From assembly GCA_020832495.1 (NCBI GenBank), contig JAFIEP010000011.1, positions 1-64,000 on the forward strand: DNA of 64,000 nucleotides, read 5' to 3'. The position numbers were made by a program, and so were the translations under genes. Each line of letters begins with the position of its first letter. Positions within the stretch are counted from its first letter, which is position 1. This stretch comes from Acidimicrobiia bacterium. GTDB lineage: Bacteria; Actinomycetota; Acidimicrobiia; Acidimicrobiales; Acidimicrobilacustridaceae. Below, piece by piece: positions 3,651-46,782 of this stretch. Below the pieces are notes generated by a model, which was not told the origin of the DNA, did not search any database, and was given only the letters and a program-made list of their open reading frames with translations.

Positions 3651-3659
3651 CGCGGCACC

Positions 3660-10771: not shown

Positions 10772-11227
10772 GTGGCTGTCCTCCCAGGACCGGTGTTGTG
10801 TTCGAAACAAGTGGTCAGCGGCCGAGTTGCCTGGTGTCGCAGTAACGGCTGGATGTGACAACGATCGGCACCGCGCTCACGCCTGACAGCAGTTCCACGC
10901 CACCGCACCTGATAGGCGGTCGCTCTCGACCTGACGTACATCGAGCTTGGCCAATCCGTCGGGCCGGCAACCAGCCACCACACGCCAGCCTTCTCCAACC
11001 ACGTTCATCATTCTTCCCAACGCCTCCCGGCCGCGCTGGGTACGAGCGCCGACGCCCGTGGACCGACGCCAAGTCCACCTCACTTCCCCTCCGTGTTCCC
11101 GCTCCCACATACCCACATTAGAACAGCAAGCAGGGCCCAGCATGAGAACCGGAGAACCGGGGCATCGCTCGCAGGTCGACGCTTGTAGCGCAACACCCGC
11201 ACCCCCACCCCCAACTACCCTGCCGCC
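10772..11227. other. Intergenic region between csb1 and the sulfotransferase gene
   Basis: 456 bp between two divergent genes, with no convincing coding sequence. It should hold the cas operon promoter, but I find no clear -35/-10 pair on the minus strand. On the plus side TACCCT at 11216-11221, six bases before the ATG at 11228, is a likely -10 for a leaderless mRNA. The part near 11140 has a short direct repeat (GAACCGG twice). No cas regulator is encoded here. Confidence 0.5.
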
Positions 11228-17244: not shown

Positions 17245-19332
17245 TCAGGCCGCAGGCAGGTTGGCGGTGCCCAGCACCCGCTCGAGCACCTCGAGCAGTT
17301 CGGCCGCTCCGTAGGGCTTCTCGAGTGTGGCGGCCACGGTGTCGGGCAGCGGTCCGGCGCCGTGGAGGTCCCCGCTCACTACCACCACCGGCAGTCCCGG
17401 CTGCGTCCGGGCGATCCACTCGGCCAATGACGCACCGCTGCGACCCGGCATGGTGGCGTCGGTGAGCACCGCAGCCAGCCGCTCGCCGTACTCGACCACG
17501 GTTGCCTCCGCCTCGGTGGCGTCGAGGGCGACCAGCACCTCGAAGCCGTTGGCTTCGAGCAGCAGTTCGGTCACCCGCAGCACCGACGCCTCGTCGTCCA
17601 CCACCAACACGGCGCGCCCGTCGGATGCGTCTCGAGGCTCGCGTCGTGACTCCCCATCGGACGCCGGCGTGGGCGCGTCCACCAGCGCCGGGAAGCGCAG
17701 CGTGAAGGTGCTGCCCTCCCCCACGGTGGAATCGACCTCGATGTCGCCCCCGTGGCTGCGCACGATGGCCAGCGTGGATGGCAGTCCCAGTCCGGTGCCG
17801 TGGCCCGGCTCCTTGGTGGTGAAGAACGGGTCGAACAGGCGCGGTCGGACGTCGGGGCCGATGCCCACGCCGGTGTCGGACACCACCAACTCCACCGCGT
17901 CGCCCTCGGGCGTCGAGACTCCGCGTACCGCCAGGCGCAGGCTGCCCCGGTCGACGTCGGCCATGGCGTCACGTGCGTTGAGACACAGGTTCAGCACCAC
18001 CTGCATGAGCTGGGTGCGGTCACCCAGCAGTTCCGGACACTCGGGGTCGAGGTCGAGCGCCACCTCCACCTGGTCGGGCATCGCCTCGTGCACCGAGTTG
18101 CACAGGTCCTCGACCACCTCCGCCAGCGCCACCGGTTCGGGGTCCACCGCAGTGCCCCGAGCGAAGGACAGGATCTGCCGCACCAGGTCGGCCCCACGAC
18201 CCGCACTCTGTGCGATGAGGTCCAGCACCGCCTGCTTGTCGGGATCGTCCTCCTCGCTCCGCAACAGCTCGGTGGACATGAGCACCGGCGCCAACAGGTT
18301 GTTGAGGTCATGAGCCAACCCACCAGCCAGGGTGCCGATGCTCTCGAGGCGTTGGGTGCGCAGCAGCTGGAGCTCGATCTCACGGCGTTCGGTGACGTCG
18401 GTGCTCACGGTGAGGATCACCTCGTCGCGCCCGAAGTGGTCGCTCACCTTGGTCCAACGCGCCTCTACCACCACCTGCTGTCCGTCGCGGCGTTGTTGGT
18501 ACAGCTGACCTGACCACTGCCCGGTGGCCAGCACGGCCTCGGTGGCAACATCGAAACGCCCCGGGTCGCGGTAGAGCAGTTCGCGCACCGAACGACCGAC
18601 CGCCTCGTCACGCGACCACCCGTACAACCGCTCCGCACCCTTGTTCCAGAAGATGATCCGGTGGTCGAGGTCGCGAACCAGTACGGCGTCGGAGGTGAGA
18701 TCGAGTAGCTCGGCGCGGGCCTGCACCGCTGCTTGGGCCTCGTAGCGGGCAGTGATGTCGGTCATACCACCAACGGCGCGCACCGCCGTGCCGTCGGCGG
18801 CTCGCTCGAACTGGGCCCGATCGGTCACCCACACCACACGGCCGCTGCGGTGCAGGAAGCGGTACTCGGCGCTCCACGAGTCGCTTCCGGAGGCGATGGC
18901 CTCGCTGATGCTCTCGAGCGCCCAGTCGACGTCGTCAGGGTGGACGAAGTCGGTCCACGAGGCGATCCCCTCGGGGAGCGTGTCCACCGGGTGGCCGAAG
19001 AGCCGCTCGAACCCGTCGCTCCACCACAGCTCACCGGTGCGCAGGTCCCAGTCCCACAGGGCGTCGGTGGTGGCGTTCGACACGAGTTCGAAGCGGTGTT
19101 CGCTGACGCGCAATTGCTCGTTGGCATGCAGCAGTTCCCGGGCAGCATCGATGCGTTCGGGGAGCACCTCGAACAGGTTGCGCCCGACCACGTCGGAGCA
19201 GGCCAGCCGCCGCTCGGCCAGGAACGCTTCCGTGACGTCGCGCACCACGAGGTCGGCATCGACCGACACGAGGGCCCGATGGTCGCCGCGCTGGCGGCCG
19301 CTGTTCTCGCTCTGCTCGGGCGCGTCGTTCAC
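17245..19332 (-). CDS. PAS-containing hybrid histidine kinase with C-terminal receiver
   Basis: A 695-residue soluble sensor kinase. In order it has an N-terminal degenerate PAS-like segment, two PAS/PAC domains (the first with WDLRTGELWWSDGFERLFG, the second with RIIFWNKGAERLYGWSRDEA), a His phosphoacceptor box LAGGLAHDLNNLLAP, an ATPase domain with N box LNLCLNARDAM and G boxes VSDTGVGIG and GHGTGLGL, and a receiver domain with VLVVDDEASV and phospho-Asp in VLTDATMPG. No transmembrane segment is visible, so it likely senses a cytoplasmic signal. The GTG at 19332 is chosen for the GGGGAGG just upstream. It is the last gene of a three-gene signalling operon. Confidence 0.9.
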   Translation of the reverse strand: MNDAPEQSENSGRQRGDHRALVSVDADLVVRDVTEAFLAERRLACSDVVGRNLFEVLPERIDAARELLHANEQLRVSEHRFELVSNATTDALWDWDLRTGELWWSDGFERLFGHPVDTLPEGIASWTDFVHPDDVDWALESISEAIASGSDSWSAEYRFLHRSGRVVWVTDRAQFERAADGTAVRAVGGMTDITARYEAQAAVQARAELLDLTSDAVLVRDLDHRIIFWNKGAERLYGWSRDEAVGRSVRELLYRDPGRFDVATEAVLATGQWSGQLYQQRRDGQQVVVEARWTKVSDHFGRDEVILTVSTDVTERREIELQLLRTQRLESIGTLAGGLAHDLNNLLAPVLMSTELLRSEEDDPDKQAVLDLIAQSAGRGADLVRQILSFARGTAVDPEPVALAEVVEDLCNSVHEAMPDQVEVALDLDPECPELLGDRTQLMQVVLNLCLNARDAMADVDRGSLRLAVRGVSTPEGDAVELVVSDTGVGIGPDVRPRLFDPFFTTKEPGHGTGLGLPSTLAIVRSHGGDIEVDSTVGEGSTFTLRFPALVDAPTPASDGESRREPRDASDGRAVLVVDDEASVLRVTELLLEANGFEVLVALDATEAEATVVEYGERLAAVLTDATMPGRSGASLAEWIARTQPGLPVVVVSGDLHGAGPLPDTVAATLEKPYGAAELLEVLERVLGTANLPAA

Positions 19333-19477
19333 CGGGTCCTCCCCGGCACGGGCACCAGCAACCGTGCGCCTCCATCGTACCGCACCCTGCACCGACACGC
19401 GGCTCGCAGTGGCACTTCGTCGAGCGCACACGGCCGGCACGACCAGGAGCCTGCCGGCGTCGGGCTGGCGCGGGACG

Positions 19478-21397
19478 TCAGGGGTCGGTCGGCTGGCACC
19501 GGTCCAAGATGGCACGCACGCGCCCCGCCAACTCCCGTGACAAGAAGGGCTTGGCCAGGAAGTCGACGTCGCGAGCGGGGACACCGCGGGTGATGACGCT
19601 GTTCTCGGTGTAGCCCGACACGTAGAGCACCTCGAGATCCGGGTGCCGGAGCTTCAGGACGTCGGCCAACTCGTGGCCCGTGCGATCGGGCATGACCACG
19701 TCGGTGATGAGCAGGTCGACCGGAGGAGAGGCGATGGCCGCCAAGCCCGCTGCATGGTCGGTGTCGTGGGCGACCAGCACGGTGTAGCCACGGTCTCGGA
19801 GGATCCGTTCGATCAGTGAGCGGACGCTGGCGTTGTCGTCCACCACCAGGATCGTCTCGGTGCCGCCGGGGTCGTCGTCGGGGTCCGTGTCGTCGCTGGC
19901 CTGCCCACTCGGCACGGGCTCCCCGTCGAGGTCGGTGAGGGGCAAGTACACCCGCACGGTGGTACCCACCCCGGGTTCGGAATAGAGCGACAGCACGCCG
20001 CCGGCCTGGCGAGCGATCCCGTGCGCCGCCGAGAGACCCAACCCGGTGCCGCCGTGGGCGCGGCGGGTGGTGAAGAACGGCTCCAGCGCGCGGCGCAGGA
20101 TCTCGTGGTCCATGCCCACGCCGTCGTCGGACACCGACACGACGCCGTACCGGCCGGCCGGGCGACCCGGATGGTTCAACGCCGTCTCCTGGTCGACGTC
20201 GGCAACGGTGACCTCGAGCAGCACCGTGCCGGCTCCCTCGAGGGCGAGCACGGCGTTGTCGACCAGGTGACCGAGCATGCGCCGGAGTTCGCCCACGTCG
20301 ACGAAGGCCGGGATGGGCGGCGTGTCCACCACGGCAGCCACCTCGACGCCGTCGGGCACGGACCCCTCGCGTTCGTGGGCCAGGCGTGCCACCTGCTCGA
20401 CGAGATCCACCGTCGTGGGGCGCACCACCTGGCCTCGGCTGAAGGTGAGCAGTTGGCGGGTCATGCCGATGGCTCGGTCGGTGGCCTCGATGATGGCCTG
20501 CACGTCCTCGGACCCCTTGTGAGCGCGACCGAGGTCCTCGGCCAGCAACGAGGCGTGCCCGGCCACCACCATCAGCAGGTTGTTGTAGTCGTGGGCGATC
20601 CCGCCCGCCATGGTGCTCACCGTCTCGAGCCGGTCGAGCTGTGACAGGTGCGCCTCGAGCCGCCGTTCGGCCCCGACGTCCGCGAAGTAGATGGTGAGGC
20701 CGTTCGCGTCCGGATAGGCCCGCACCCGGAACCAGGTGTCGAGGGGTGCCGGGTAGTACTCGTCGAAAGTGACCGTCTCGCCGGTGTCCACCGCATGGCG
20801 ATACTGGCGCTCGAACTCCGAGCCGACCGCGTGAGGGAACTCGTCCCACACCACCCGGCCGAGCAACGTGTCAGGCCCTCGATGCAACATCCGGTGAGCT
20901 GCCGCGTTGGCATACGTGACCCGCCACTGCCGGTCCAGCGCCAGCACGGCGTCGCTGATGCGCTCGATCACCGCTTCGGTGCTCCGGCGGGCGGCGATCT
21001 CGGCCTGTTCGAGCTTCGCCTGCTCGGTGACGTCGACGAAGCGGACCACCAAGTGGTTCCCCACCCGGCTGGCGTGCAGTTCGAAGAACCCCGAGACCGG
21101 CGCGGAGGTGAACTCGAGCACCGACACGAGGTCCTGGCCGGTCTCGAAGGCGGCCCGGTAGCGATCGAACAACCCCGACGGCCCGTGCTCGGGACTCACC
21201 TCGAGCAACAGCGAGCCGTCGAACACCTCCCACGGTCGATGGAGGATCTCAATGGCAGCCTCGTTGGCATAGCACCACCGGAAGTCCACCAGCGTCCCGG
21301 CATGGTCTCGCACCGGTTCGAGCGCAATGACCCCGAGCGCCAGGGAGTCGAGCAGTTCCTCGGCGTCGAAGGGCACGCCGTCCTCGGACCGACTCAC
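19478..21397 (-). CDS. PAS-containing hybrid histidine kinase with C-terminal receiver
   Basis: A 639-residue kinase of the same design as the gene downstream: two or three PAS domains (LLDSLALGVIALEPV, then RISDAVLALDRQWRVTYANAA), the phosphoacceptor box MAGGIAHDYNNLLMV, an ATPase domain with SDDGVGMD and GGTGLGLS, and a receiver with ILVVDDNASVRSLIE and ITDVVMPDRTG. The HDYNN box and the fused receiver are typical of hybrid kinases that pass phosphate internally. No membrane span is visible. The GTG at 21397 is preferred, as the open frame upstream lacks PAS-like sequence; GGGGAG lies nearby. It starts 64 bp after the receiver-EAL gene and ends 145 bp before the next kinase. Confidence 0.9.
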   Translation of the reverse strand: MSRSEDGVPFDAEELLDSLALGVIALEPVRDHAGTLVDFRWCYANEAAIEILHRPWEVFDGSLLLEVSPEHGPSGLFDRYRAAFETGQDLVSVLEFTSAPVSGFFELHASRVGNHLVVRFVDVTEQAKLEQAEIAARRSTEAVIERISDAVLALDRQWRVTYANAAAHRMLHRGPDTLLGRVVWDEFPHAVGSEFERQYRHAVDTGETVTFDEYYPAPLDTWFRVRAYPDANGLTIYFADVGAERRLEAHLSQLDRLETVSTMAGGIAHDYNNLLMVVAGHASLLAEDLGRAHKGSEDVQAIIEATDRAIGMTRQLLTFSRGQVVRPTTVDLVEQVARLAHEREGSVPDGVEVAAVVDTPPIPAFVDVGELRRMLGHLVDNAVLALEGAGTVLLEVTVADVDQETALNHPGRPAGRYGVVSVSDDGVGMDHEILRRALEPFFTTRRAHGGTGLGLSAAHGIARQAGGVLSLYSEPGVGTTVRVYLPLTDLDGEPVPSGQASDDTDPDDDPGGTETILVVDDNASVRSLIERILRDRGYTVLVAHDTDHAAGLAAIASPPVDLLITDVVMPDRTGHELADVLKLRHPDLEVLYVSGYTENSVITRGVPARDVDFLAKPFLSRELAGRVRAILDRCQPTDP

Positions 21398-21461
21398 CGT
21401 GGCTCCCCGCACGATCCCGCCTGGGCCTGATGGCGACCGGTGGGCCACGCTCGACGCGCCG

Positions 21462-23177
21462 TCACGCGAAGCCGACCTCGTCGCAGGGCACCGGACGACC
21501 GAACAGATAGCCCTGTCCGAAGGGAATGCCAAGGGAACGGAGCACATCGTGCTCCTCGGTGACCTCCACCCCCTCGGCCACCACCGCCGCTCCGGAGACC
21601 TCGGCGTAGGAGTTGATCCCCATGAGCAGTGCCTGCCGCGCCGGGTCCTCGTGGATGCCTCGCACCCACTCCCGGTCGAGCTTCACGAAGTCGGGTTGCA
21701 GGGAGAACACGTGCCGCAGGCTGGCCCAGCCCGACCCGGCGTCGTCCACCGACGTCCGCACGTGATCACCGAGCGACACCAATGCCTGACGCACACCGTC
21801 GTAGTCGTCGATCCGCTCGTGCTCGGTGAGTTCCACCACCAGCGGTCGGCTGGTGAACCCCGCGAGCAGCTCTCGCATCCCGCGATCGCCCAGCAGGGCC
21901 GCCGAGACGTTCACCGACAGGTAGCTGTCACCGGGCAGATCGACGGCGGTCCGCGCCGCCGCCGTCAGCGTGGCCAGCTCGAAGTCGGCCCCCAGTCCGG
22001 CGGCGGCTGCTTCGGCAAAGCGACGATCCGGTGGGGTGCCGTCGGTGAAACGGGTCAATGCCTCAAAGCCCACGGTGTGCAGTCCGTCGAGTGTCACGAT
22101 CGGTTGGAACACCGGGAAGAAGGCCTCCTCGGCGATGACCTTTCGCAGGCTGGCCGCCGCCGACCCGCTGAGTCGGCCCCGTTGCAACGCCCGACCGAGG
22201 GTCTGGTCGATCACCGGCAGCAGGTCGAGCACCGCAGCCCGCACCGCTCCCCGGGGGCCGTGGTCCTCGGCGGACGCGTTGACCACCACGGCGGCGATCA
22301 CGGCGTCGTGGTCGTCGAGCACAGGGGCGACGTAGGCATCGCCGACGTCATCGCCGAAGAGTGAGGCCGTCGTGCTGCGGCCGAGGGAGGTCACATCGTG
22401 GAGGAGGTCGTCGCCCCGAGTCCCGAGGGCCTGCGCCACCTCGGCCACGAGTGACGGGGCGAGGTCGAGGCCGGGCCCGGCGGTCGATGTGTCCGCAGCG
22501 GCGTGCGCCAGCAGCGCTCGGTGGTGCTCGCCGTCGAGGTCGACGACGACAACCCCCTGCACACCGGGCAACTCGGTCAGGAGGTCGGCCACCTGCGCCG
22601 CCGCCTGCTCGGGCTGCTCGTCGCGGGGCACCGCCGCCAGCGCACCGGCCAGCACCGCACGTTCGTGCAACAGGTCCGCCACCTGTGATCGCCAGGCGTC
22701 GCGGCCGCGGAGCTGGGCCCGAACCCGCGCCACGAGCTCGTCGAGATCCACCGGCTTGACCACGTAGTCGTCGGCCCCCGCTCCGAGCCCGTCGACCCGG
22801 TCGGCGGGCTCGGAGCGTCCCGTCACCATGATCACCGGCAGCGTCGCCGTTCTGGGGGTTTCTCGTAGCCGGCGAAGGATCTCCAGTCCCGACATGTCAG
22901 GCAACACCGTGTCGAGCAGCACCACGTCCACCAAGGCGTCGTCGAGCACTGCCCCGGCGGATGCCCCATCGGCCGCGGTGAGCACCTCGAACCCTCGGCG
23001 GGTCAACGCCCGCTCGAGTAGACGCAGTACGGCAGGGTCGTCATCGACCACCAAGATGCGCGCCTCGGGACCATCGGTGCCTGCCGCCACTGTTCCGCCC
23101 CCCTCCGGATCTGCCGTTCCCGTGCTCTCCACCGAGCCCGACACTACTGCACTCGTGCTTGCTGCACCGCGGAACAT
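21462..23177 (-). CDS. Response regulator with EAL (c-di-GMP phosphodiesterase) output
   Basis: A 571-residue protein with an N-terminal receiver (ILVVDDDPAVLRLLER, phospho-Asp in LLDTVLPDMSG, Lys in DDYVVKPVD), a GAF-like middle, and a C-terminal EAL domain. EAL key motifs are kept: FEALTRF, LSVNVSA, VVELTEHE, SVDDAGSG, FVKLDREWV and VVAEGVEV, so hydrolysis of c-di-GMP is plausible. It is the first gene of an operon with two hybrid kinases that could phosphorylate it. The start at 23177 is uncertain; the frame is open upstream of the receiver for only about 40 residues and I see no strong Shine-Dalgarno. Confidence 0.88.
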   Translation of the reverse strand: MFRGAASTSAVVSGSVESTGTADPEGGGTVAAGTDGPEARILVVDDDPAVLRLLERALTRRGFEVLTAADGASAGAVLDDALVDVVLLDTVLPDMSGLEILRRLRETPRTATLPVIMVTGRSEPADRVDGLGAGADDYVVKPVDLDELVARVRAQLRGRDAWRSQVADLLHERAVLAGALAAVPRDEQPEQAAAQVADLLTELPGVQGVVVVDLDGEHHRALLAHAAADTSTAGPGLDLAPSLVAEVAQALGTRGDDLLHDVTSLGRSTTASLFGDDVGDAYVAPVLDDHDAVIAAVVVNASAEDHGPRGAVRAAVLDLLPVIDQTLGRALQRGRLSGSAAASLRKVIAEEAFFPVFQPIVTLDGLHTVGFEALTRFTDGTPPDRRFAEAAAAGLGADFELATLTAAARTAVDLPGDSYLSVNVSAALLGDRGMRELLAGFTSRPLVVELTEHERIDDYDGVRQALVSLGDHVRTSVDDAGSGWASLRHVFSLQPDFVKLDREWVRGIHEDPARQALLMGINSYAEVSGAAVVAEGVEVTEEHDVLRSLGIPFGQGYLFGRPVPCDEVGFA

Positions 23178-24708: not shown

Positions 24709-27018
24709 TCACAGGGCACCGAAGTCCTCAGGTGGGGCATCGAGGTCGAGGCCGGGATCCGTCGACGGCACCGAACCACCGAGGTCAGGCGCCGCTTCGA
24801 TGGGCTCGAGGTCAGCGACGTCGACGCCGGCACCAGGCGCAGCGAACGATGCAGCCACGGCCGGAGTGTCGGCGCCGAGGTCGGGGGTCGCCACCGCTGC
24901 GTCCCCGTCGTCACCACCGGCGTCCCGACCGCTCTCGCGCACGACGTCGCGCCCGTCGGCTTCCTGTCGCGCCGCACCGGATCCGAAGTCGCGGTCAGCC
25001 AGTGCATCGTCGCCGTCGGTCGCCTCGCGCTCACCCGGTGACATGGCCTCGTCGTGGGTCGGAGCGCCCGCCATGGCGCCCTCGGCGTTCTCGACGGTGT
25101 ACTGGGTGTCGTCGCCCTCCGAGCGCTCGGCGCCGTCGGCCTGCTGGGGCTGCGTCTCTGCGCGCAGTTCGACCGCCTGGTCGTAGACGTCCTCCCGACG
25201 CTCACCGAGCTGCTCGTGGCTGCGAGCCAGCTCCTCGCAGCGAGCGTCGAACTCGACTGCATCGAGCTCCTGGCGGGAGTCGACCAGTGATCCCATCGAC
25301 TCGGCCAGCGCCTCTTGCTCGCTGCACAGCAGCTCGGCGTCGCGTCGCACCTCCTCGAGCACCGCCACTCGTCCGGCGTCCACCTCGCGCATGGCCGGGG
25401 ACTCCTCGGGCCGACCGCCGTCGCCGCCAGCCGGCCCGTCGAGCAGGTCGGCGGGATCCTGGTACAGCTCGTCTGTGGGCAGGTCGACCTCGGCGGCGAT
25501 CTCCTCGAAGCGACGCAGGAGGTCATCCAGCTCGAGATCGCGCGAGTAGATGACGTCGCGTTCCAACGCCAGCTCGGACAGGCGGGCGTCGTACTCCTCG
25601 GGAGCCAGGGCGTGCTCGTTGGCTCGCAACGTCTCGAACTCGTAGTGGAGCACCTCTTCGGCCAGGTCACAGAGCGCTCGCTCGGCCGCCACATCCTCGG
25701 GTCCGCGTGGGTTGCCGAGCGACCAGCCGCCGATGTACTCGCCGAGCACCGTGTTGGAGCTCGGGTAGGTGGGTCCCTCGTTCCAGCCGAGGTCGGAAGT
25801 GCCGCGGTACACCTCCTGGCCGAGGACGTGGGCCGAGGAGGAACCGTGAAGTCCGTCGCCGCCCACCCCGACGCTCGTCTCGCCCGACACCACCTCGTGG
25901 CCCAACACGGTCCCCGAGCCCGACGCACCGACCCCGTGACCCTGCAACCCGATCGACGACTCACCGGCCATCGCCTCCCGGTCACCGACGTGGGCCGAGG
26001 CCGAGGTGCTCAGATTGCCGCTGTTCAGGTCGCCGGCGTGCAAGGTGCCTTCCTGTTTGCCCAGCTGCTGATCGCCATGGGAGGCCGTGGCCGAGAGCGT
26101 GGCATCACCGGAGGGGTCGACGTCGGCGCCGAGGCCGGCGCTCACCCCGTCGAAGTTCGCCTCGACACCCACCGAGCCACCGCCACCGATGGTGCCCTGC
26201 GCCTCGGCGCTGGCCCCCATCTCGAGCCCACCGATGTTGGCTGATCCCCCCGAGGTCACTGTTCCTTCGCTGAAGTCGATCGAGCTGCCCATCTCGCCGC
26301 TGGCCACCTCCTCGCCCTTGTAGGACACCGAACCCTGAGCGAACATGCCGTCCTCACTGGTGGGGATGACCCCACCCGAGGCCTCCACCCCGACGGCCTC
26401 ATTGCCCATGACCGAGCCGGTGGCCGACAGCCCGGCCGTACCGGCCACGAGGTCGCTCTCCGCCGAGTACTCGGCACCGAGCACCTCGCTGCCGCCCTTG
26501 GTCACCGAGCCCGAGGCGTCGAGCGAGCTGGCCAGACCTCCCTGGTGGGGCAGCGTGTAGTCCGCCTCCACCTCGCCGGATGCCTCCACGTCGCGGTAAC
26601 CCACCGAGCCGCTGCCGGCGAAGGACGTCCCCTGGACCGAGCCCTCGGCCGACGCGCTGTGGCTCCCTGCGGAGGCCGTGCCGGCGGCGGCGAACGAGCC
26701 GTCGGACTGCAGTCCTGCGCTGCCCGACACCGAGCCGGTCGGTGTGGTGGCCGACGCCGTGAACTGCCCGTCGTCATCCACCCCGAAGGTCACCGCCCCG
26801 CCGCTGGCGCTGTCGGCCGCCTCGCCGGCCTGGTTGACCGCACCGGTCGCCGCGTCGCTGGCCGAGTCGTAGGCGTTCTGCGCATCCTGCTTGGCTCCCT
26901 CGGCCGTGCTCGTGGCCGTGTCCTTGGCCGCATCCCACGCGCCCTGAGCATCACCGCTCGAGGCGGAATCCCACACGCTCTTCGCCCCGTCCTTGAAGTT
27001 CGACCACGCGTTCGACAT
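24709..27018 (-). CDS. Large Gly/Ser/Ala-rich repeat protein, unknown function
   Basis: The 769-residue product has no signal peptide. Residues 1-72 are an amphipathic Ala/Asp/Lys helix (SAxDAAKDTATSTAEGAK style) like LEA or apolipoprotein helices. About 76-430 is a long series of short beta-like units with many GS(V/A)S, ASGSV and GEVxSGE turns, resembling a beta-solenoid or a repeated barrel-like sheet. About 437-620 is charged coiled-coil (VAAERALCDLAEEVLHYEF), and 620-769 is an acidic, disordered tail. I do not recognise the family. AAGGAG lies 9 nt before the ATG. The neighbours (P450, SRPBCC protein) give no clue. Intracellular location is inferred from the lack of a leader. Confidence 0.75.
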   Translation of the reverse strand: MSNAWSNFKDGAKSVWDSASSGDAQGAWDAAKDTATSTAEGAKQDAQNAYDSASDAATGAVNQAGEAADSASGGAVTFGVDDDGQFTASATTPTGSVSGSAGLQSDGSFAAAGTASAGSHSASAEGSVQGTSFAGSGSVGYRDVEASGEVEADYTLPHQGGLASSLDASGSVTKGGSEVLGAEYSAESDLVAGTAGLSATGSVMGNEAVGVEASGGVIPTSEDGMFAQGSVSYKGEEVASGEMGSSIDFSEGTVTSGGSANIGGLEMGASAEAQGTIGGGGSVGVEANFDGVSAGLGADVDPSGDATLSATASHGDQQLGKQEGTLHAGDLNSGNLSTSASAHVGDREAMAGESSIGLQGHGVGASGSGTVLGHEVVSGETSVGVGGDGLHGSSSAHVLGQEVYRGTSDLGWNEGPTYPSSNTVLGEYIGGWSLGNPRGPEDVAAERALCDLAEEVLHYEFETLRANEHALAPEEYDARLSELALERDVIYSRDLELDDLLRRFEEIAAEVDLPTDELYQDPADLLDGPAGGDGGRPEESPAMREVDAGRVAVLEEVRRDAELLCSEQEALAESMGSLVDSRQELDAVEFDARCEELARSHEQLGERREDVYDQAVELRAETQPQQADGAERSEGDDTQYTVENAEGAMAGAPTHDEAMSPGEREATDGDDALADRDFGSGAARQEADGRDVVRESGRDAGGDDGDAAVATPDLGADTPAVAASFAAPGAGVDVADLEPIEAAPDLGGSVPSTDPGLDLDAPPEDFGAL

Positions 27019-27200
27019 CTGCTGCTGCTCCTTGGAGACCGCTACCGGACGATCCGGTACCGGGTCCGAACCTACGGATCGAGCCCGACCGCAACATCCG
27101 GGAACCCCCGGAGTTTGGGCAACGGTTGTGGGCCCGCCACGTCGCGTCCTTCGGGTGCACCGGTAGCGTGATGCCAACAACCCTGCAGTCGGGAGGTGCC

Positions 27201-27671
27201 ATGGCAACCGTTCAGTTCGAGGTGCGACAGCCGTTTGATGCTCCGGCTCGGGCGGTGTGGGACGCCCTCGTCGACTGGTCAGGTCACGCCGAGTGGATCC
27301 CCATGACGCGGGTGTCGGTCGAGCCCGGCGACTCGACCGAACCGGGCGCCCGCTTCACCGCCTGGACCGGCCCCGGCCCCCTGGCACTCGAGGACCGCAT
27401 GGAGGTCGAGTCCTGCGACTGGGACGACGAACTCGGTGGCGGGCGATGTGTGGTCCGCAAACTCGGCCCGGTGCTCCGAGGCCGCGCCGGCTTCACGGTG
27501 CTCCCCACCGACCACGGCAGCGAGCTCCGCTGGTTCGAAGACGTCACCGTGCCGCTCGTACCCCAGCTGCTGTCGCCCGTCGTGACGAAGCTGAGCGCTG
27601 CCGGGTTCCGCCACGGTATGCGGAACCTGGCCCGTCAGCTCACGACGACGAGGACCCGATCGACTCGATGA
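27201..27671 (+). CDS. SRPBCC (START-like) family protein
   Basis: A 156-residue protein of the polyketide cyclase/START fold: start VQFEVRQPFDAPARAVWDAL, then the WSGHAEWIP segment, a central FTAWTGPGPLALEDRMEV strand pair, and a C-terminal helix (VTKLSAAGFRHGMRNLARQL). Such proteins bind hydrophobic ligands; the ligand is unknown. GGGAGG lies 5 nt before the ATG. The 3' end overlaps the convergent serine-hydrolase gene by 32 bp. It is divergent from the repeat-protein gene. Confidence 0.85.
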   Translation: MATVQFEVRQPFDAPARAVWDALVDWSGHAEWIPMTRVSVEPGDSTEPGARFTAWTGPGPLALEDRMEVESCDWDDELGGGRCVVRKLGPVLRGRAGFTVLPTDHGSELRWFEDVTVPLVPQLLSPVVTKLSAAGFRHGMRNLARQLTTTRTRSTR

Positions 27672-28878
27672 TCGGCGCCAGGAACTCGGCGTCGCTCCAT
27701 CCCGGCGAGGGCCGGAGCGTGCCCCGATCCTCTACGAGGCCGCTGGGGTAGAACTCGTACAGGCTCGGGTCGGCCACCGGCTCCCCGTCGTGCTTGATGT
27801 AGGTGCCGTTGCGCACGACCACCAGGTCGAGGCTCGGGATGACGTAGATGAACTGCCCGTCGTGTCCGCGTGCGGAGTAGAGGTCGTCGGGAAGGTCGTC
27901 GTCACGGACCCCGGTCAGCCACCACTGGAACCCGTAGTAGTCGGCCGCCGGCGAGGGCTCGACGGATACTTCGACCCATGCGGCCGGCACCACCTGCTCC
28001 CCTTGCCAGGCGCCCCCGTCGAGGTACAGCTGTCCGAAGCGGGCGAAGTCCCGGCTGGTCGTGTCGAGACAGCAGTAGGTGAGGGTGGTGCCCACGGCAT
28101 CCTCCCACCACTCCACCTGCTCGATGCCGAGGGGGCCGAACAGCTTCTGCTCGGCGTACTCTGCCGCCGACATCCCGGTCACCTGCTCCAGCACACCCGA
28201 GAGCAACAACGTGTCACCGCTCGAATAGTTGAACACCGTGCCGGGCTCCTCGAGCTCGGGACGATCGGCGGCGTAGGTCAGCTGGTCGGGGCTGGCCAAC
28301 ACCAGTTGGATGATGTCGGAGCTCTCGAGGTCGGCCGGGTCGTAGCTCTCGGTGAAGTCGAGCCCGGACGCCATCTGGAGCACGTCACGCAAGGTGATGT
28401 CCTCACGAGGTGAGCCCTCCCACTCGGGGTACCAGGTGGTCATCGGCTCGTCGACCGACTCGATGAGCCCCTCGTCGATGGCGATACCCACCAAGGCGCT
28501 GGTGAAGCTCTTGGCCACCGACCAACTGGCCGCCCACGAGTCCTGATCAGCATCGGATGCGTACCACTCGGCCACCAGGCGACCCTCGCGGATCACGACC
28601 ACGCCCTGGGTATGCTCCACCTCCTCGAAGGCGTAGCTGCGCGCCTGCTCGAGGGTGGCAGCGTCCATGCCGACCTCGGAGGGGTCGACCACCTCCCAAT
28701 CCCAGGCGGCGTCCTCGGTCGAGGAGTCGCCGTCGCCGGGTTCGTCAGGCCCACCGTCCGTCGTTGCCGAACGCTCGTCATCGACGGTCGCCGTCGCGTC
28801 CTCCGCGACGTCGTCACCCGCACACGCTGCCAGCACCACGGCCAACGCACACACCACTGCCATCACACGACGTCTCAT
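27640..28878 (-). CDS. Serine hydrolase lipoprotein, class C beta-lactamase fold
   Basis: A 412-residue lipoprotein (lipobox LAAC, Cys19) of the beta-lactamase/6-aminohexanoate-dimer hydrolase family. The active-site SVAK (Ser120, Lys123), the second motif Tyr218-Ser-Ser, and HDG (339-341, in place of KTG) are present. An acidic linker follows the signal peptide. Substrate is unknown; esterase or amidase activity is typical. GAGGGGG lies just before the ATG. The next gene upstream on the same strand is a close paralogue, with the same leader and linker design, so this is a tandem duplication. Confidence 0.9.
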   Translation of the reverse strand: MRRRVMAVVCALAVVLAACAGDDVAEDATATVDDERSATTDGGPDEPGDGDSSTEDAAWDWEVVDPSEVGMDAATLEQARSYAFEEVEHTQGVVVIREGRLVAEWYASDADQDSWAASWSVAKSFTSALVGIAIDEGLIESVDEPMTTWYPEWEGSPREDITLRDVLQMASGLDFTESYDPADLESSDIIQLVLASPDQLTYAADRPELEEPGTVFNYSSGDTLLLSGVLEQVTGMSAAEYAEQKLFGPLGIEQVEWWEDAVGTTLTYCCLDTTSRDFARFGQLYLDGGAWQGEQVVPAAWVEVSVEPSPAADYYGFQWWLTGVRDDDLPDDLYSARGHDGQFIYVIPSLDLVVVRNGTYIKHDGEPVADPSLYEFYPSGLVEDRGTLRPSPGWSDAEFLAPIIESIGSSSS

Positions 28879-29016
28879 GGGTCCCCCTCGAGTCCCGTGG
28901 AGTGTAGGACAGCCTCGCCAGCACCCCACAGGTCGCGGTTCGATGGCCCTCAGCAGGCCCGGCGAGACGCCACTGCCACCCGCCGGCCGCCCGCGCTCGG
29001 TCGCCGCTTGCCGCCG

Positions 29017-30240
29017 CTACTGCTCGATCGACTCGACGATGGGCACCAGGAACTCGGCGTCGCTCCACTCCGGGTCCGGACCGCGAGTACCGCGATCCTC
29101 GATCAGGTCGCTCGGGTAGAACTCGTACAGGCTCGGGTCGGCCACCGGCGCCCCGTCGTGCTTGATGTAGGTGCCGTTGCGCACCACCACCAGATCCAGA
29201 CTGGGGATGACATAGACGTACTGGCCGTCGACCCCGATTGCCGCGTAGGTGTCGTCGGGGACACCGTCGTCGTACGCTCCGACCAGCCACCACTGATAGC
29301 CGTAGTAGTCGGCGGCCGGCGACGGCTCGATCGACTCGGTGACCCACTCGGCGGGCACCACCTGCTGGCCCTGCCACACACCGCCGTCGAGGTAGAGCTG
29401 GCCGAACCGGGCGAAGTTTCGGCTGGTGCTGTCGAGACAGCAGTAGGTGAGCGTGGTGCCCTCGGCGTCCTCCCACTACTCGGCCGGCTCGATGCCGAGC
29501 GGTGCGAAGAGGCGGTCGGCGGCGTAGTCGGCGACCGACATGCCGGTCACCTGCTCGAGCATCCCCGACAGCAGCAGCGTGTCACCACTCGAGTAGTTGA
29601 AGATGGTGCCGGGCTCCTCGACTGCGGGTCGGCTGGCGGCGTAGGCAAGCTGGTCCGGGTGGAACAGCACGAGCTGGGTGATGTCGGCGGTCTCGAGATC
29701 GGCGGGGTCGTAGCTCTCGAGGAAGTCGAGCCCCGACGCCATCTGCAGCACGTCACGCAAGGTGATGTCCTCACGAGGCGAGCCCTCCCACTCCGGGTAC
29801 CAGGTGGTCATGGGCTCGTCGACCGAGTCGATGAGGCCCTCGTCGATGGCGATGCCCACCAGCGCGCTGGTGACGCTCTTGGCCACCGACCAACTGGCGG
29901 CCCACGAGTCCTCGTCGGCATCGGATGCGTACCACTCGGCCACCAGACGGCCATTCCGGATGACCACCACTCCTTGGGTGTGCTCCACCTCGTCGAAGGC
30001 GTAGGTGCGGGCCTGCTCGAGGGTGGCGGTGTCCATGCCCACCTCGGAGGGGTCGACCACCTCCCAGTCCCACTCGGCCACGTCCTCCGTCGAGATGTCG
30101 TCCTCACCTCCACCTGCGGCCTCGGCCGCCGCGGTGGTTGTCGTCTGCTCGTTCGCCGCTGTCGTGGCGTCGTCGTCACCGCTGCAGGCGGCGACGAGCA
30201 CGGCCATGGCGAGCATGACGAGTCCGATGATGTTGCGCAT
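29017..30240 (-). pseudogene. Serine hydrolase lipoprotein paralogue interrupted by in-frame TAG
   Basis: This copy matches its neighbour along the whole length: lipobox VAAC, SVAK active site, FNYSSGD, and a C-terminal half ending DAEFLVPIVESIEQ. At codon 255 (29476-29478) a TAG stands where the intact paralogue has the first Trp of EWWED; the frame then reads on without further stops to 29017. A single G-to-A change explains it. The His of the HDG motif is also changed to Val (GVDG), so function may have been relaxing before the stop. Alternatives are a sequencing error or stop readthrough. The first 254 codons could still make a truncated lipoprotein carrying SVAK and YSS. Confidence 0.8.
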
Positions 30241-30293
30241 GTGGTCCCCCTCGATGTCGGTCGCCACAGTACCGGCGCGGCGCACCCCAACAG

Positions 30294-30327
30294 CCAGTGG
30301 GTTCCTCCAGCCAGTGGGTTCCTCCAG
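30294..30327 (+). repeat. Two tandem 17-bp units upstream of the hydrolase paralogue
   Basis: CCAGTGGGTTCCTCCAG occurs twice back to back between the DUF6351 gene stop and the paralogue start. It looks like a recent local duplication. Confidence 0.9.
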
Positions 30328-30364
30328 CCGGGCCGCTGCCGAGCGACACGACCCGACTCGGAGC

Positions 30365-33298
30365 TCACTCGGTTCGGCGACGCACCCGCAGGAGAGCGAA
30401 ACCACCGCCGATGGCCAGAACCCCGACCGCGGCAAGTGCCGCCGCCTCCGCACCAGTGCGGGGCAGGATCCCGCGGCGACCGGGTGTGCCCGGCCGAGAT
30501 GTCGTCTGTCCGGGGAAGCCGGCACGCATACCCGGACCGGTCGCCGTCGGTGACTGCCACGGCGGGCGACCGGCGCCCGAGGTAGCGGGCCGGGTCGTGG
30601 TCGTGGGTTCGCTGACCCCACCGGCCACTGCGGTGGTGGTGGTCGTGGAGGCGACCGTGGTCGTGGTGGTCGGCTGCGGCGCCGTCGTGGTGGTCGTCTC
30701 GGGTACCGGCGTCGACACCGTGATCGACACCGAGGCCACCGCGGAGCGGAGGTCCCCGTCGTCGGCCTGCCAGGTGAAGCTGTCGGTGCCCTCGAAGCCG
30801 GGGTTCGGGGTAAAGGTGAGCTCTGGCGCGACGCCGTCCACGGTGCCCGCCGTCGGTGGGTCGAGCAGTCGGTAGGTGAGGGGATCTCCGTCGGGATCGG
30901 TGGCGTCGAGGTTGACCGTCACCGGCGTGCCGACCGTGGTCTCGGCCGACGTCGACGAGGCGACGGGCGCAGCGTTGAACGGCGACCCGACCCCCACCCG
31001 TGAATAGTCGCAGACCCCGTCGGGGAAGATCGTCTGGAGCTGGGCCCGCTCCGCCGGCGTGGGGGTCCACTCGCCGTAGATGCCCTCGTCGATGGCAGCC
31101 TCGACCGACATGGTGCGGCACTTGTACACGTCACCCTCGATGGGCCCGCCGGCCACGATGCGCGACGTGGAGTAGAGCGGGAAGTGGGCGGCGCAGGGGC
31201 CGACGGATTCACCTGCCACGGTCTCGGGGGCCGAGCCCGTCCATGCGCCGGCGCCGGAGGTCACCAACTCCTCGGCACCGTGCCACACCTCGGACCCTTC
31301 GGCGACGAGGGTCCCGTCGGTGGTCCAGCAGCGGTCGACGGCGGACGCCGGACGGTTGGCCGCCACGGACCGGGCAGGGTCGGCGTCGATGGCCAAGAGC
31401 CACTCGTCGAGCAGCCGGAAGGCGTCGACGTGCAGTTGGAAGGTGGCTGCCTGGTCGATCGTCGGGCGGGCGTCGAGGAACCAGATGAGGTGGTTGTCGG
31501 GGTTCATCCCGGCTCGCTCCAGGCGCTGACGCGCCCCGAAGGACTGCTGCACATTGTGCATGTCGAGTTGGTGCTCGAGGTAATGGCGAGCGTCGATGAT
31601 CGGGATCTCGCGAGGCAGCCGTCCGGTGAAGACGAGGCCCGAGTCGTAGGCGGCGCGGATGGCATCGACATCACCCTGACGCCGGGGCGCCGGGTGCGCG
31701 GGGTCGGCCGAGAACTGCATCTGCCGGGCGCTGTGCTCGTCGAGTTCCGCGCCTTCGCACATACCGATGAGCTGGGCGAACATGGCCAGGTCCGTGCCCA
31801 CCATGGCGCCGACCAGCCCGCACGACTCCAACACGGTGTCCTCGGGCTCCTTCCACGACCCCACCTGGGCGTTCAGCCCCAGGAACTCGTCGGGGGTGAG
31901 GGTGCCGTCGGCCACGTACCGCAGCCCGTACTGCACACCCACGTTGTCCCACGGCACCCGGGCGAAGCCGGTGTCGGGGTCCGTGCCGTACACCTCGCGG
32001 ACGTCGTCCCAGTGCGTCCACTCCACCCAGGTGCCCCCATCGGGGGCGACCCGCAGCAGTCGTCCCAGGTCGGGGAAGTCGTCGGGCACCGGCGGTTGGC
32101 CGGCGTTCAGCTTGGTCAGCATCTCCGCTGCGTAGGGCAGGATGACCGAGTCCATGCGGGTGGCCAGACCGAACGTGGGGTTCATGGCCAGCGGCGTCGA
32201 GCCCCGCCATCCCTCGATGCACTCCGTCGATCCGGGCGCCCCGGTGCGAGCCTGCCACGACGAGGTGAACCCTTGGATCGAGTTGAGCCCCAACAGCAGC
32301 CGCCGGTTGTCCCAGTCCTGCCAACGCGCGTTGTCGGCGTCGAGTACGTCCATGTAGTGGGCCAGCAGTTCGCAGTCACCGATGTGGATGGTCTGGGTGC
32401 TCATGTCCGGGTAGGAGTACTGCGGGACAGCGGCATCGAGCAGGCCCGGGTGGTTCTGGGCGTAGACGTACTGCTGGATGCCGCCGCCGCTGCCCCCGAT
32501 ACCGATCGTGAAGCGGGGCGCGCCGTAGCGGTCCGAGAACAGGTCCTTGGCCTCCACCGCCGTTCGCCCACCGAGCATGAGGTTGTAGTGCACGCTGGTG
32601 CGGTTGCCGCTCGTGTAGATCACCGCGTGGCCCAGACGCATGGCCTCGTCCATGGTGGCCGCCCCGGTGGACAGGTCACCCTGGCTGTGGCCGATGCCAA
32701 CCCCGCCACCGAAACTGAACAACAGTCTGCGGTTCCAGTGGGCGGTGGAGCGCTCACCAGTGGTGACCTCGTCGAAGGGCACCAGCATGGCGATGCTGTA
32801 GAGGAAGCGGTGCTCAGGCAGCGTGCCTCGCTCGAAGCGGAGGACGTAGGGGATCTGCGCTGCCCCGCCGAACTCCATGGCGTCGGCACCCACGAGTCCG
32901 CCCACGTCGAGCATGGCCACGTCGGCCGGCAGCTCGGTGGTGCCTGGGGCCAGCGTCTGCAGCGACCCGCCCGTGGTGCGGTAGCGGTACTCGACGAGGT
33001 CGGGCGCCTGGCAGCGTTCGCTCCACCCGAGGGGCGGCTGGCTGCGATCAGGCTGCCCGTCGGCTCCGGTGGGATAGACGGGCGTACCGCGCTTGTCCTG
33101 GTTGTCGACGATGGGCTGGCCGAGACCGTTGAACTCGGTGGTGCACAGGAAGGGCACTCGGGTGGTGTCGCTGCGCGGTGACGCCTCCGCCGCCGGATCG
33201 GTCCCCGGCGCGGCGAACGGCAGCAGCAGTGCAGCGACTACCAACGCCGCAGCGGCAACCACGAACTGACGCATCGACTGGCGCGCGCTGCGAGCCAT
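30365..33298 (-). CDS. Sortase-anchored DUF6351-type hydrolase with cadherin-like domain
   Basis: A 977-residue secreted protein. It has a signal peptide (VVAAAALVVAALLLPFAA), a roughly 750-residue catalytic-looking region of the DUF6351 type with the nucleophile-elbow-like GIGGSGGGIQQYVYAQ, then an Ig/cadherin-like domain (VTVNLDATDPDGDPLTY to FTWQADDGD), a Thr-rich linker, and a C-terminal LPRTG signal at about 945 followed by a hydrophobic helix and RVRRRTE. The sorting signal predicts covalent attachment to the cell wall. The alpha/beta-hydrolase idea rests on the GGSGG elbow and local GHSQG; substrate is unknown. AGGAGG lies 7 nt before the ATG. No sortase gene is in the window. Confidence 0.8.
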   Translation of the reverse strand: MARSARQSMRQFVVAAAALVVAALLLPFAAPGTDPAAEASPRSDTTRVPFLCTTEFNGLGQPIVDNQDKRGTPVYPTGADGQPDRSQPPLGWSERCQAPDLVEYRYRTTGGSLQTLAPGTTELPADVAMLDVGGLVGADAMEFGGAAQIPYVLRFERGTLPEHRFLYSIAMLVPFDEVTTGERSTAHWNRRLLFSFGGGVGIGHSQGDLSTGAATMDEAMRLGHAVIYTSGNRTSVHYNLMLGGRTAVEAKDLFSDRYGAPRFTIGIGGSGGGIQQYVYAQNHPGLLDAAVPQYSYPDMSTQTIHIGDCELLAHYMDVLDADNARWQDWDNRRLLLGLNSIQGFTSSWQARTGAPGSTECIEGWRGSTPLAMNPTFGLATRMDSVILPYAAEMLTKLNAGQPPVPDDFPDLGRLLRVAPDGGTWVEWTHWDDVREVYGTDPDTGFARVPWDNVGVQYGLRYVADGTLTPDEFLGLNAQVGSWKEPEDTVLESCGLVGAMVGTDLAMFAQLIGMCEGAELDEHSARQMQFSADPAHPAPRRQGDVDAIRAAYDSGLVFTGRLPREIPIIDARHYLEHQLDMHNVQQSFGARQRLERAGMNPDNHLIWFLDARPTIDQAATFQLHVDAFRLLDEWLLAIDADPARSVAANRPASAVDRCWTTDGTLVAEGSEVWHGAEELVTSGAGAWTGSAPETVAGESVGPCAAHFPLYSTSRIVAGGPIEGDVYKCRTMSVEAAIDEGIYGEWTPTPAERAQLQTIFPDGVCDYSRVGVGSPFNAAPVASSTSAETTVGTPVTVNLDATDPDGDPLTYRLLDPPTAGTVDGVAPELTFTPNPGFEGTDSFTWQADDGDLRSAVASVSITVSTPVPETTTTTAPQPTTTTTVASTTTTTAVAGGVSEPTTTTRPATSGAGRPPWQSPTATGPGMRAGFPGQTTSRPGTPGRRGILPRTGAEAAALAAVGVLAIGGGFALLRVRRRTE

Positions 33299-33403
33299 GA
33301 CACACCTCCTGCGAGTCCCCCTAATTCGGCCCTGCGCCGCACCGCAGCACCTCGGGCCGTGGGGCACCCTACCGCGACGACTTCGGCGCCGCCCGACGCC
33401 GAC

Positions 33404-33461
33404 CCGATCCGGTGGCCCACTGCGCGCAACCAACCACCGATCCGGTGGCCCACTGCGCGCA
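33404..33461 (+). repeat. Two 25-bp direct repeats with 33-bp period
   Basis: A 25-bp sequence starting CCGATCCGGTGGCCCACTGC occurs at 33404-33428 and 33437-33461, exact in both copies, in the divergent gap between the DUF6351 gene and the glycosidase gene. It may be a recent duplication or a pair of regulator sites. Confidence 0.85.
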
Positions 33462-39083: not shown

Positions 39084-41240
39084 TCAGGGAATGGGAGGCG
39101 CCCCGAAGCGTGGGCACTGGCCTCCCGGTGGCTCCGGCGGGGTCGGTCCCGGGTCCACCACGCTGGGTCCACCGGCGGCGATCGAGTCCACGAACGAGCG
39201 GCCGATCGCCGGATAGGTCCGGGCCCCGAAGTGGCCGCTGTCGACCTGCACGACCACACCGGTACGGCCACCCGGCAGGTTCTGCGACACGGGGGTCACC
39301 ACGTTCGACGGCTCGAACGGCGAGTCGTAGTCGGCCTGGGCCAGCACCAGCGGGCCGTAGAGGGGCTGGCGGGTCTGCGGGTTGGCGATCGGGATGCCGA
39401 GCGCGGTGGCCAGGTGGGTGCTCACCTCGATGGCGGTGCAGCCGTCGCGCAGACCGCCGTACATGACCACGTCGGTGGTGATGGCTGCGGCGTAGTTCGC
39501 CGGCTCGGCCGGCTCTGCGAACGTCTGGAGGAGCTGCGGATAGGGATGGTAGACGTCGAGTTCTCCCGGTTCGGCACCGATCAGGTTCTCCACCAGCGAG
39601 CGAACGTCGGCCCGGTAGACGATGGAGTGGTAGAGCCCGGCTCCCGACGCCGACAGATAGGCACCCTGGACGTTGCCCGGGGCGTAGGCCAACGTGAGGG
39701 GCAAGGTCGTGGCCCCCTGGCTGTGACCGCCGAACACCACCGTTGCGAGGTCGAAGCGTCCGTCGATCCCGCCACCGGCTTCGTCCGGAGCCACCTCGAA
39801 GCCATGGAGCAGTCGCTCGATGTACAGCACGTCAGCGGCCTGTTGCATGGCGTTGGTGCGCGCCGCCAGGGGGTTCCCGTAGTTGAAGAACTGGAAGTCC
39901 GAGGTGTTGAACGGCACCGGCACACCGCTGATGAGGCGGTCCCCCGAATAGAGCGGTGCGATCGAGACGACCGCATAGGGCAGGTCCGGCCCGAGTTCGT
40001 TGATCGGTGCCGCCCGGGCCACTGCGCCGGTGCCACCGATCCACACCAGCAGCGGCCAGCCGCCCTCGGGAGCGGGACCGCAGGGGATGGCGACGTCGAG
40101 GAGGACCCCGTCCCCGCTGCTCCCCAACTCCACGCCTTGCTGCACGGCGAGACCGTTCCCGTCCACCTCGATGTTCCCACCGGCATCGACGAACGGACGG
40201 GTCCCCGCCTGCCAGATCGGCAGGGCGACACGAGCAGTGCTGCGAGCCAACCCGCCGTCGACGCACGGCTCGGCCGTGGGTTCACGACTGAGGACCTCCG
40301 GCTCCGGAAGGGCCGCAACCGCCGCGGCGATGGCATCCATCTCGGAGGTCGTGGCCTGTGTGGTGAAGGCGGCGAAGGCGACCAGATCGGCCGGTCGCCA
40401 CAGGGTGCGGGCTCGAACGGCATCGATGACGTCGTCACGATCCTGACGCAGCGCCGCCCACGTTTCGGCTGGGACGCCTGCGGGGGCCGAGCCGTCGAGC
40501 GCCTCGATGGTCGGGGAGGGAGCCAGCCGGAAGCCGTCGGCATCGCGCAGGCCGTTGAACACCGCCGCGCCGTAGCGGGTCGACGGCCTCAGGGGATGTC
40601 CGGGGTACGGAAGCACCGCGAGCAGATGTGACGGGCGCCTCGGGGTTCCCGTTGCCTTGTAGTCGACGAGCACCGGGACGGGCGCAGCAGTGGGGTCGTC
40701 GAGGTCGAGGAGCAGGACGGTCGATCGAGGCTCGATGGTGGACTCCGCCAGATCGGGCACGCTCGAGAGATCCAACTCGCCCGAGGCCCGGAAGTACACG
40801 GCGCTGTTCGTCCCGAAACCGAAGGTGTCGGCTTCGCCACGACCGATGACGATGTCTGCGATCTCGAACGACGACCGGCCCGGGAAGTCGGAGAGGTCGA
40901 GCGACCCGTCAGCTCTGAGTCGGCTGTCGGACGGCCACGGCGCATCGAAGAAGCCGCCTGCCAGGGTCGGGTCCAACAGCACGGTGGTGGCACCGATGGC
41001 CGGCGAAGGGAGGAAGATCTCGGCCTCGATCTCGGCGGCGGCAGCCCGCGCTGCCTCGGCTGACGCGTCGTCGCCGTTCGCCTCGGCGACGTCGGCCTCG
41101 TCGAGAAGGGCGTTGATCTGGGCACGGGCCTCCGACGCGCCGGGACTCCAGGTGTCGAGTGGCGTGTAGCGACAGCCCGCGGCAACGAGCACGATCGCCA
41201 CGGTGACGGCCACGAGACGGACGGTGGAACGGGAGAGCAT
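39084..41240 (-). CDS. Secreted alpha/beta-hydrolase lipoprotein
   Basis: A 718-residue lipoprotein (lipobox VAAGC near residue 18). The C-terminal half has the nucleophile elbow VFGGHSQGATTLPL and a late His in VDSGHFGARTYP, the Ser and His of a hydrolase triad. The N-terminal half holds beta-rich segments with LLDLDDPTAAPVPV and FFDAPWPSDSRLRADG, like a large family of actinobacterial and myxobacterial lipoproteins of unknown substrate. Signal peptide MLSRSTVRLVAVTVAIVLVA fixes the ATG at 41240 within a longer open frame. It is divergent from the ABC transporter pair. Confidence 0.8.
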   Translation of the reverse strand: MLSRSTVRLVAVTVAIVLVAAGCRYTPLDTWSPGASEARAQINALLDEADVAEANGDDASAEAARAAAAEIEAEIFLPSPAIGATTVLLDPTLAGGFFDAPWPSDSRLRADGSLDLSDFPGRSSFEIADIVIGRGEADTFGFGTNSAVYFRASGELDLSSVPDLAESTIEPRSTVLLLDLDDPTAAPVPVLVDYKATGTPRRPSHLLAVLPYPGHPLRPSTRYGAAVFNGLRDADGFRLAPSPTIEALDGSAPAGVPAETWAALRQDRDDVIDAVRARTLWRPADLVAFAAFTTQATTSEMDAIAAAVAALPEPEVLSREPTAEPCVDGGLARSTARVALPIWQAGTRPFVDAGGNIEVDGNGLAVQQGVELGSSGDGVLLDVAIPCGPAPEGGWPLLVWIGGTGAVARAAPINELGPDLPYAVVSIAPLYSGDRLISGVPVPFNTSDFQFFNYGNPLAARTNAMQQAADVLYIERLLHGFEVAPDEAGGGIDGRFDLATVVFGGHSQGATTLPLTLAYAPGNVQGAYLSASGAGLYHSIVYRADVRSLVENLIGAEPGELDVYHPYPQLLQTFAEPAEPANYAAAITTDVVMYGGLRDGCTAIEVSTHLATALGIPIANPQTRQPLYGPLVLAQADYDSPFEPSNVVTPVSQNLPGGRTGVVVQVDSGHFGARTYPAIGRSFVDSIAAGGPSVVDPGPTPPEPPGGQCPRFGAPPIP

Positions 41241-41419
41241 CACGATCAGCCGATCGACGAGAGGTGCGGACGGGGACTCAGCGGGGACGGCCGACAACGG
41301 CCGATGCGATCCGCCGGGCCCGCGCCGCAACGATAGGCGTCCCGGTGTGCCCGTGCTGCCCGAGCCGTGATGACCAACGACCCTGGATGCTGTCGCACCC
41401 TCGCTCTAGCCTGCGCCAG

Positions 41420-46547: not shown

Positions 46548-46560
46548 GAGCTGCCTCCGG

Positions 46561-46602
46561 GGTTCGGTCGTGGAGGTTCGGTCGTGGAGGTTCGGTCGTG
46601 GC
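46561..46602 (-). repeat. Three tandem 14-bp units upstream of the DoxX-like gene
   Basis: GGTTCGGTCGTGGA occurs twice and a third copy differs only in its last base, back to back, about 14 bp before the DoxX-like start codon. It would lie in the 5' untranslated or promoter region; its role is not known. Confidence 0.85.
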
Positions 46603-46782
46603 CGCCACCATCGGCCGGCTCCGGTGGCGAGGCTAGCGGCGCATGACACCGACGAGCCTGCTCCCAGGGAGTCCACTGACCCCGAGCCCGGCTGCGACTA
46701 CCGAGCGTGGTCGACGCTCAAGGTGGGGATTCTTCTGGGTTTCTCGTTGCACACCACGCACCACGGCGATAGAGTCGTACAC

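Follow-up and report, generated by a model that had tools for sequence, protein, structure and literature searches.

The window analysed here is a stretch of 64,000 nucleotides from an Acidimicrobiia bacterium (contig JAFIEP010000011.1). A solitary gene on its minus strand encodes a protein of 77 kDa (pI 4.05), in which an amphipathic helix, a Gly/Ser/Ala-rich strand region, two helical hairpins, and an acidic tail follow one another from the N- to the C-terminus. The neighbouring cytochrome P450 gene (23159-24679) is convergent and the Polyketide_cyc2 gene (27201-27671) divergent. The features of the gene and its product were as follows:

24709..27018, minus strand: whole coding sequence, 769 amino acids plus stop
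27028..27033, minus strand: AAGGAG ribosome-binding site, 9 bases 5' of the ATG, read from the sequence
26806..27018, minus strand: amphipathic helix, residues 1-71, with an Ala-rich and weakly hydrophobic apolar face (AF2, periodicity)
26809..26940, minus strand: four consecutive 11-mers in the group-3 LEA register, residues 27-70 (periodicity, consensus match)
25723..26802, minus strand: Gly/Ser/Ala-rich strand region, residues 73-432 (alternation, self-alignment; low-confidence strands in the model)
26437..26523, minus strand: strand-repeat unit 1, training row of the unit profile
26344..26427, minus strand: strand-repeat unit 2, training row of the unit profile
26260..26340, minus strand: strand-repeat unit 3, training row of the unit profile
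25933..26013, minus strand: strand-repeat unit 4, training row of the unit profile
25849..25932, minus strand: strand-repeat unit 5, training row of the unit profile
25774..25851, minus strand: strand-repeat unit 6, training row of the unit profile
25489..25701, minus strand: helical hairpin 1, residues 440-510 (AF2)
25153..25398, minus strand: helical hairpin 2, residues 541-622 (AF2), with the motif E[YF]DARxxELA
24712..25152, minus strand: acidic Ala/Asp/Gly/Pro-rich tail, residues 623-769 (147 aa), predicted to be disordered (charge, AF2)

The frame was checked from the ATG at 27018 to the stop at 24709, and the coordinates given by an earlier reading of the DNA (the sequence-only reading) were exact in strand, length, and ribosome-binding site. 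GC at the three codon positions was 0.74/0.54/0.86, as in the neighbour genes, and the frame was thus taken as a true gene; its coding is real. Two overlapping frames tested at the same place were without this pattern. A longer frame of the gene extends to a TTG at 27207, and the N-terminal part added in this way has no hydrophobic core.

Elsewhere in the window, CRISPR-Cas genes were found at 1983-10861 on the minus strand (a Cas4-Cas1 fusion, Cas3, and GSU0054- and GSU0053-family proteins), a set that we take to be type I-U/I-G. Three adjacent signalling genes (17245-23177) encode two hybrid PAS histidine kinases with receiver domains and one receiver-EAL protein. Two beta-lactamase-fold genes lie in tandem (27640-28929 and 29017-30621). 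The second of them appears to be split, one frame (29476-30621) carrying the first half of the domain and another (29017-29379) what reads like the rest of it, and is therefore disrupted or mis-assembled. A DUF6351 tannase-like protein with a bacterial Ig/cadherin-like domain is encoded at 30365-33433, and two long coding-like frames (39084-41330, 748 aa, and 46510-48534, 674 aa) had no Pfam match at E 1e-5.

The N-terminal helix, described as LEA-like by the sequence-only reading, was borne out. AF2 prediction of the full protein placed helices at residues 2-21 and 24-71, the helical hydrophobic moment at 100 degrees reached z 7.2, and the apolar autocorrelation of residues 1-71 was strongest, among the lags tried, at lag 11 (z 5.3). 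The best helical angle was 97 degrees, the ideal 3-11 helix having 98.2 degrees. Across residues 24-72 (H 0.01, moment 0.25, net charge -6), the apolar side of the helix is nearly all Ala, with one Trp, one Tyr, and one Val; residues 2-20 had H 0.19 and moment 0.46, and the helix is acidic overall (net -7). An 11-mer pattern score (28, the largest shuffle giving 22) was designed after the sequence was seen and was therefore not used as a test. Residues 27-70 were compared with the tandem group-3 LEA consensus 11-mer, TAQAAKEKAGE as quoted in an excerpt of PMC6559209, and shared 16 of 44 positions with it, a count equalled by 21 of 20,000 shuffles.

In common with group-3 LEA proteins (e.g. Deinococcus radiodurans dr_1172), the repeat protein has an Ala-rich, weakly hydrophobic stretch in which four 11-mers follow one another in the shared apolar register. 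Unlike them, it has only this one short stretch, which is Asp- rather than Lys/Glu-rich, and its helix is followed by a large strand region and the hairpins. In biophysical terms, the group is defined by chains that are disordered in water, become helical on drying, and are protective. LEA membership is not claimed, since no Pfam LEA_4 match was obtained despite the 11-mer register; the protein is not classed with the LEA proteins, and may work in an LEA-like manner. A plain LEA-type stress protectant, mostly disordered and acting as a molecular shield on water loss, with strand repeats and hairpins as accessories, would account for the register, the extreme hydrophilicity and acidity, and the low AF2 confidence across most of the chain. 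However, the LEA-like part covers only ~70 of the 769 residues, strand alternation and confident hairpins point to folded parts, and LEA_4 matched neither the protein nor anything in its own genome, although the genome search proves little, as its control gave no match anywhere. We regard this explanation as unlikely, if by no means negligible.

Extended 3-11 helices are described in apolipoproteins, synucleins, and perilipins in the sections of PMC6164224 used here, which also discuss LEA helices as protectants and present the poorly hydrophobic helix type as known from coats and desiccation proteins. The 11-residue periodicity and the poorly hydrophobic face are shared with the perilipin/synuclein helices as those sections describe them, whereas the helix of the repeat protein is net negative and shorter, and the likeness observed is one of pattern. 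In actinobacterial lipid-inclusion proteins, e.g. TadA, HBHA, and Tgs1, an amphipathic helix has been proposed as the inclusion anchor, and helices were selected by H 0.40-0.60 and moment 0.40-0.75 (both from an excerpt of PMC10699116). The repeat protein also has an amphipathic helix, but both residues 2-20 and residues 24-72 fail the selection window given in that excerpt.

The strand region spans ~360 residues with a diverged unit of 27-30 residues, the consensus of six units being LxASGSxxVxGxEVxxGExSxGxxxxxGx. The apolar autocorrelation of residues 73-432 was z -3.9, +2.5, and -6.2 at lags 1, 2, and 3, the signature of strand alternation, and the hydrophobic moment of residues 73-415 at 160-180 degrees gave z 4.1-4.4. 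Self-alignment of the region scored 306.6 against 25 shuffles (mean 147.6, sd 11.6, largest 177.5). An ungapped lag scan peaked at lag 27 with a z of only 3.0. In a leave-one-out test of the six units, which had been chosen by hand, the real score was reached by 0, 0, 0, 1, 12, and 38 of 2000 shuffles. Three units could be aligned between residues 160-262 and 330-432 with 32% identity (BLASTP E 2e-4 across 57 columns). Alternation, self-similarity, and the leave-one-out test all agree with the ~350 residues of short Gly/Ser/Ala beta units that had been read from the sequence. At the DNA level, direct repeats in the region were short (63-81% identity to reference copies) and no tandem expansion was found by DNA repeat analysis, from which the strand repeats are judged to be old.

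Structure prediction, suggested earlier as a check, gave confident helices and a poor strand region: in the whole-protein AF2 model, predicted without relatives, the latter had pLDDT of about 30. When a 103-residue piece (three units) was predicted from an alignment with its internal copy, six short-linked strands of 7-13 residues each were obtained within 82 residues, at a mean pLDDT of 46.8. A Foldseek search of the PDB with this low-confidence model gave no match with E < 0.001. Because of that low confidence, the topology of an elongated antiparallel sheet is given as a suggestion rather than a result, and the ladder size of about 26 strands is an extrapolation from the three-unit model.

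What had been called a coiled coil is better described as two predicted helical hairpins, residues 440-510 and 541-622, with AF2 pLDDT mostly 81-92. Each contains the motif E[YF]DARxxELA where its second helix begins. A duplication of the hairpin was considered and set aside as statistically insecure, BLASTP of one hairpin against the other giving E 0.027 over ten residues only and self-alignment of the hairpin region (56, shuffle mean 62) being no better than shuffles. The acidic tail reported before was confirmed, with a net charge of -25 across the final 129 residues.

The fold search with the hairpins matched generic helical proteins, none with E < 0.001. PDB sequence search gave four weak matches, the best being the coiled coil of the Mpa/ARC proteasome ATPase (3m9b; E 0.018, residues 537-630); this similarity is generic, and the repeat protein, unlike Mpa/ARC, has no ATPase domain in Pfam. 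The long repeat region and the hairpins would suit a cytoskeletal or filament-forming protein assembled through hairpins and strand ladder, but the lack of any fold match with E < 0.001 and the short, acidic hairpins make such a protein rather improbable.

No signal peptide was found in the 769-residue protein or in the upstream extension to TTG 27207, in line with the earlier statement (hydropathy ≤0.24 in N-terminal windows), and no transmembrane stretch was found, the highest 19-residue hydropathy in the protein being 1.05. These two absences are the sole basis for the cytoplasmic location that had been proposed, which stands as a default and not as a finding, since the composition is like that of exported proteins. 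With Arg at 3.8%, Asp+Glu at 18.9%, and Gly+Ser+Ala+Thr at 45%, the make-up of the repeat protein is outside the range of the 27 other window proteins compared. The nearest in pI, Arg, and Asp+Glu is the neighbouring beta-lactamase-fold protein (27640-28929), which has a lipoprotein-like leader as judged by eye.

Strand repeats of this style, Gly/Ser/Ala-rich and alternating, are common in bacterial surface and toxin-delivery proteins and resemble the strand region here. The protein could accordingly be extracytoplasmic, leaving the cell through a specialised secretion system that needs no classical signal, with the strand ladder as a surface or delivery scaffold; in favour of this, it is like the leader-bearing neighbour in being poor in Arg, rich in Gly/Ser/Thr, and low in pI. 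On the other side, and unlike such surface and delivery proteins, it shows neither a signal peptide nor any toxin or adhesin domain recognised in Pfam or NCBIfam. EccC, part of the actinobacterial type VII secretion machinery, gave two weak matches in the own genome (best 94.9 bits, cut-off 509) in a search that placed 0 of 14 controls above the cut-off, and no secretion genes were recognised among the 29 other window proteins searched in Pfam. Export is considered improbable, though a serious competitor.

No family had been recognised in the first reading, and profile searches led to the same outcome: Pfam and NCBIfam had no match to the protein at E up to 1, PHROGs had a single weak one (E 0.31), and none of them showed the evident likeness to an established secreted or structural family that would have spoken against that reading. 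Whole-protein searches recovered the gene itself and one other match in 61 relatives (L002), three in 395 genomes of the class (L002-L004), and one in 396 genomes of the phylum (L002), all rejected. From family and order up to class and phylum, the whole-genome searches thus yielded chance matches only. In the 61-relative set the own genus was represented by the own genome alone, and in the class and phylum searches, which are of low sensitivity for this reason, two candidates were scored per genome. The genome sets overlap and include the own genome.

Part queries were similarly negative. The N-terminal helix had 0 other matches in 99 genomes, the strand region one in 99 genomes, the hairpins six in 248 genomes, and a second repeat profile six in 395 genomes, and the matches of the last three were rejected on reading. 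The non-self whole-genome matches were judged by eye to be shadow frames of ordinary genes, frames with internal stops, or unrelated proteins. The six-unit profile, applied to the 61 genomes, matched the protein itself six times, all of them training rows; seven further short matches (E 0.009-0.09), spread over six genomes, were regarded as noise. As a positive control, the Polyketide_cyc2 neighbour was matched in 37 of 61 genomes (own included) with the same search engine, and no similar repeat protein was seen around its closest relative (G042).

The search of the own genome yielded no paralogue. Peptide scans matched 37 stretches in genome_contigs and two in viral_contigs, none of them a relative, and tblastn found nothing in phages or plasmids with an E-value limit of 0.1. 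The tandem-repeat DNA pattern occurred in at least 119 stretches of genome_contigs; when the unit profile was run against these 119 and four other loci, only the query was clear (next best E 0.78, reversed control 1.4). No description of such a helix, strand-ladder, and hairpin architecture was found in the literature searched.

At the search depth used here, the protein is thus an orphan. Distant relatives are hard to detect with a low-complexity composition, so this status is no proof of uniqueness. That no relatives were found in any search would fit a recently arisen, weakly constrained orphan of little function, whose apparent order reflects biased composition. Against this stand the intact 769-codon frame with its strong ribosome-binding site and codon-position signature, as well as the divergence of the repeats, whose halves share about 32% identity, and the lack of any recent tandem expansion in their DNA, both of which speak for age; we consider a young orphan distinctly unlikely.

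The function that we tentatively prefer, while giving it less than an even chance, is that of a structural or protective protein, specific to the lineage, encoded by a single gene, and probably cytoplasmic, with an adsorbing helix, a strand body, associating hairpins, and an acidic tail. The 11-mer helix, whose pattern is seen directly, would be an adsorption helix of low hydrophobicity, like those of LEA proteins, perilipins, and synucleins, and would fold onto a surface, which might be that of a membrane, a lipid inclusion, or a partly unfolded protein. The 360-residue region, in which alternation and repeat are evident, may form an elongated antiparallel sheet of 27-30-residue two-strand units according to the low-confidence model. 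The two hairpins could serve in self-association or partner binding, and the acidic tail may keep the assemblies soluble and separate. This anatomy is compatible with the coat, scaffold, or stress role suggested by the sequence-only reading. Against a cytoplasmic scaffold count the composition, like that of the exported neighbour, the pLDDT values of the three-unit and full models, and the missing LEA_4 match.

A wax ester synthase/diacylglycerol acyltransferase (wax ester/triacylglycerol synthase-type) gene in the window (53498-54934) suggests neutral-lipid storage and makes a lipid inclusion conceivable as the target of the helix. It lies 26 kb from the repeat-protein gene, a distance that gives no functional link, and the H and moment of residues 24-72, outside the PMC10699116 range, and the net charge of -7 argue against that target. 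The more specific proposal, in which an LEA/perilipin-like helix is fused to a new, long cytoplasmic antiparallel strand ladder of undescribed fold with cross-linking hairpins and forms a coat around an internal surface, e.g. a lipid inclusion, is doubtful and given a small probability.

If disordered or exported, the protein would be one more orphan acidic protein, which is a common thing. The orphan status is sound, and the fold is possibly new. If the strand ladder is truly folded, it would represent a long strand-repeat fold inside the cell that no family model matches, joined to a kind of helix known to coat membranes and lipid droplets, and desiccation-type helices would then be linked with structural assembly in bacteria.
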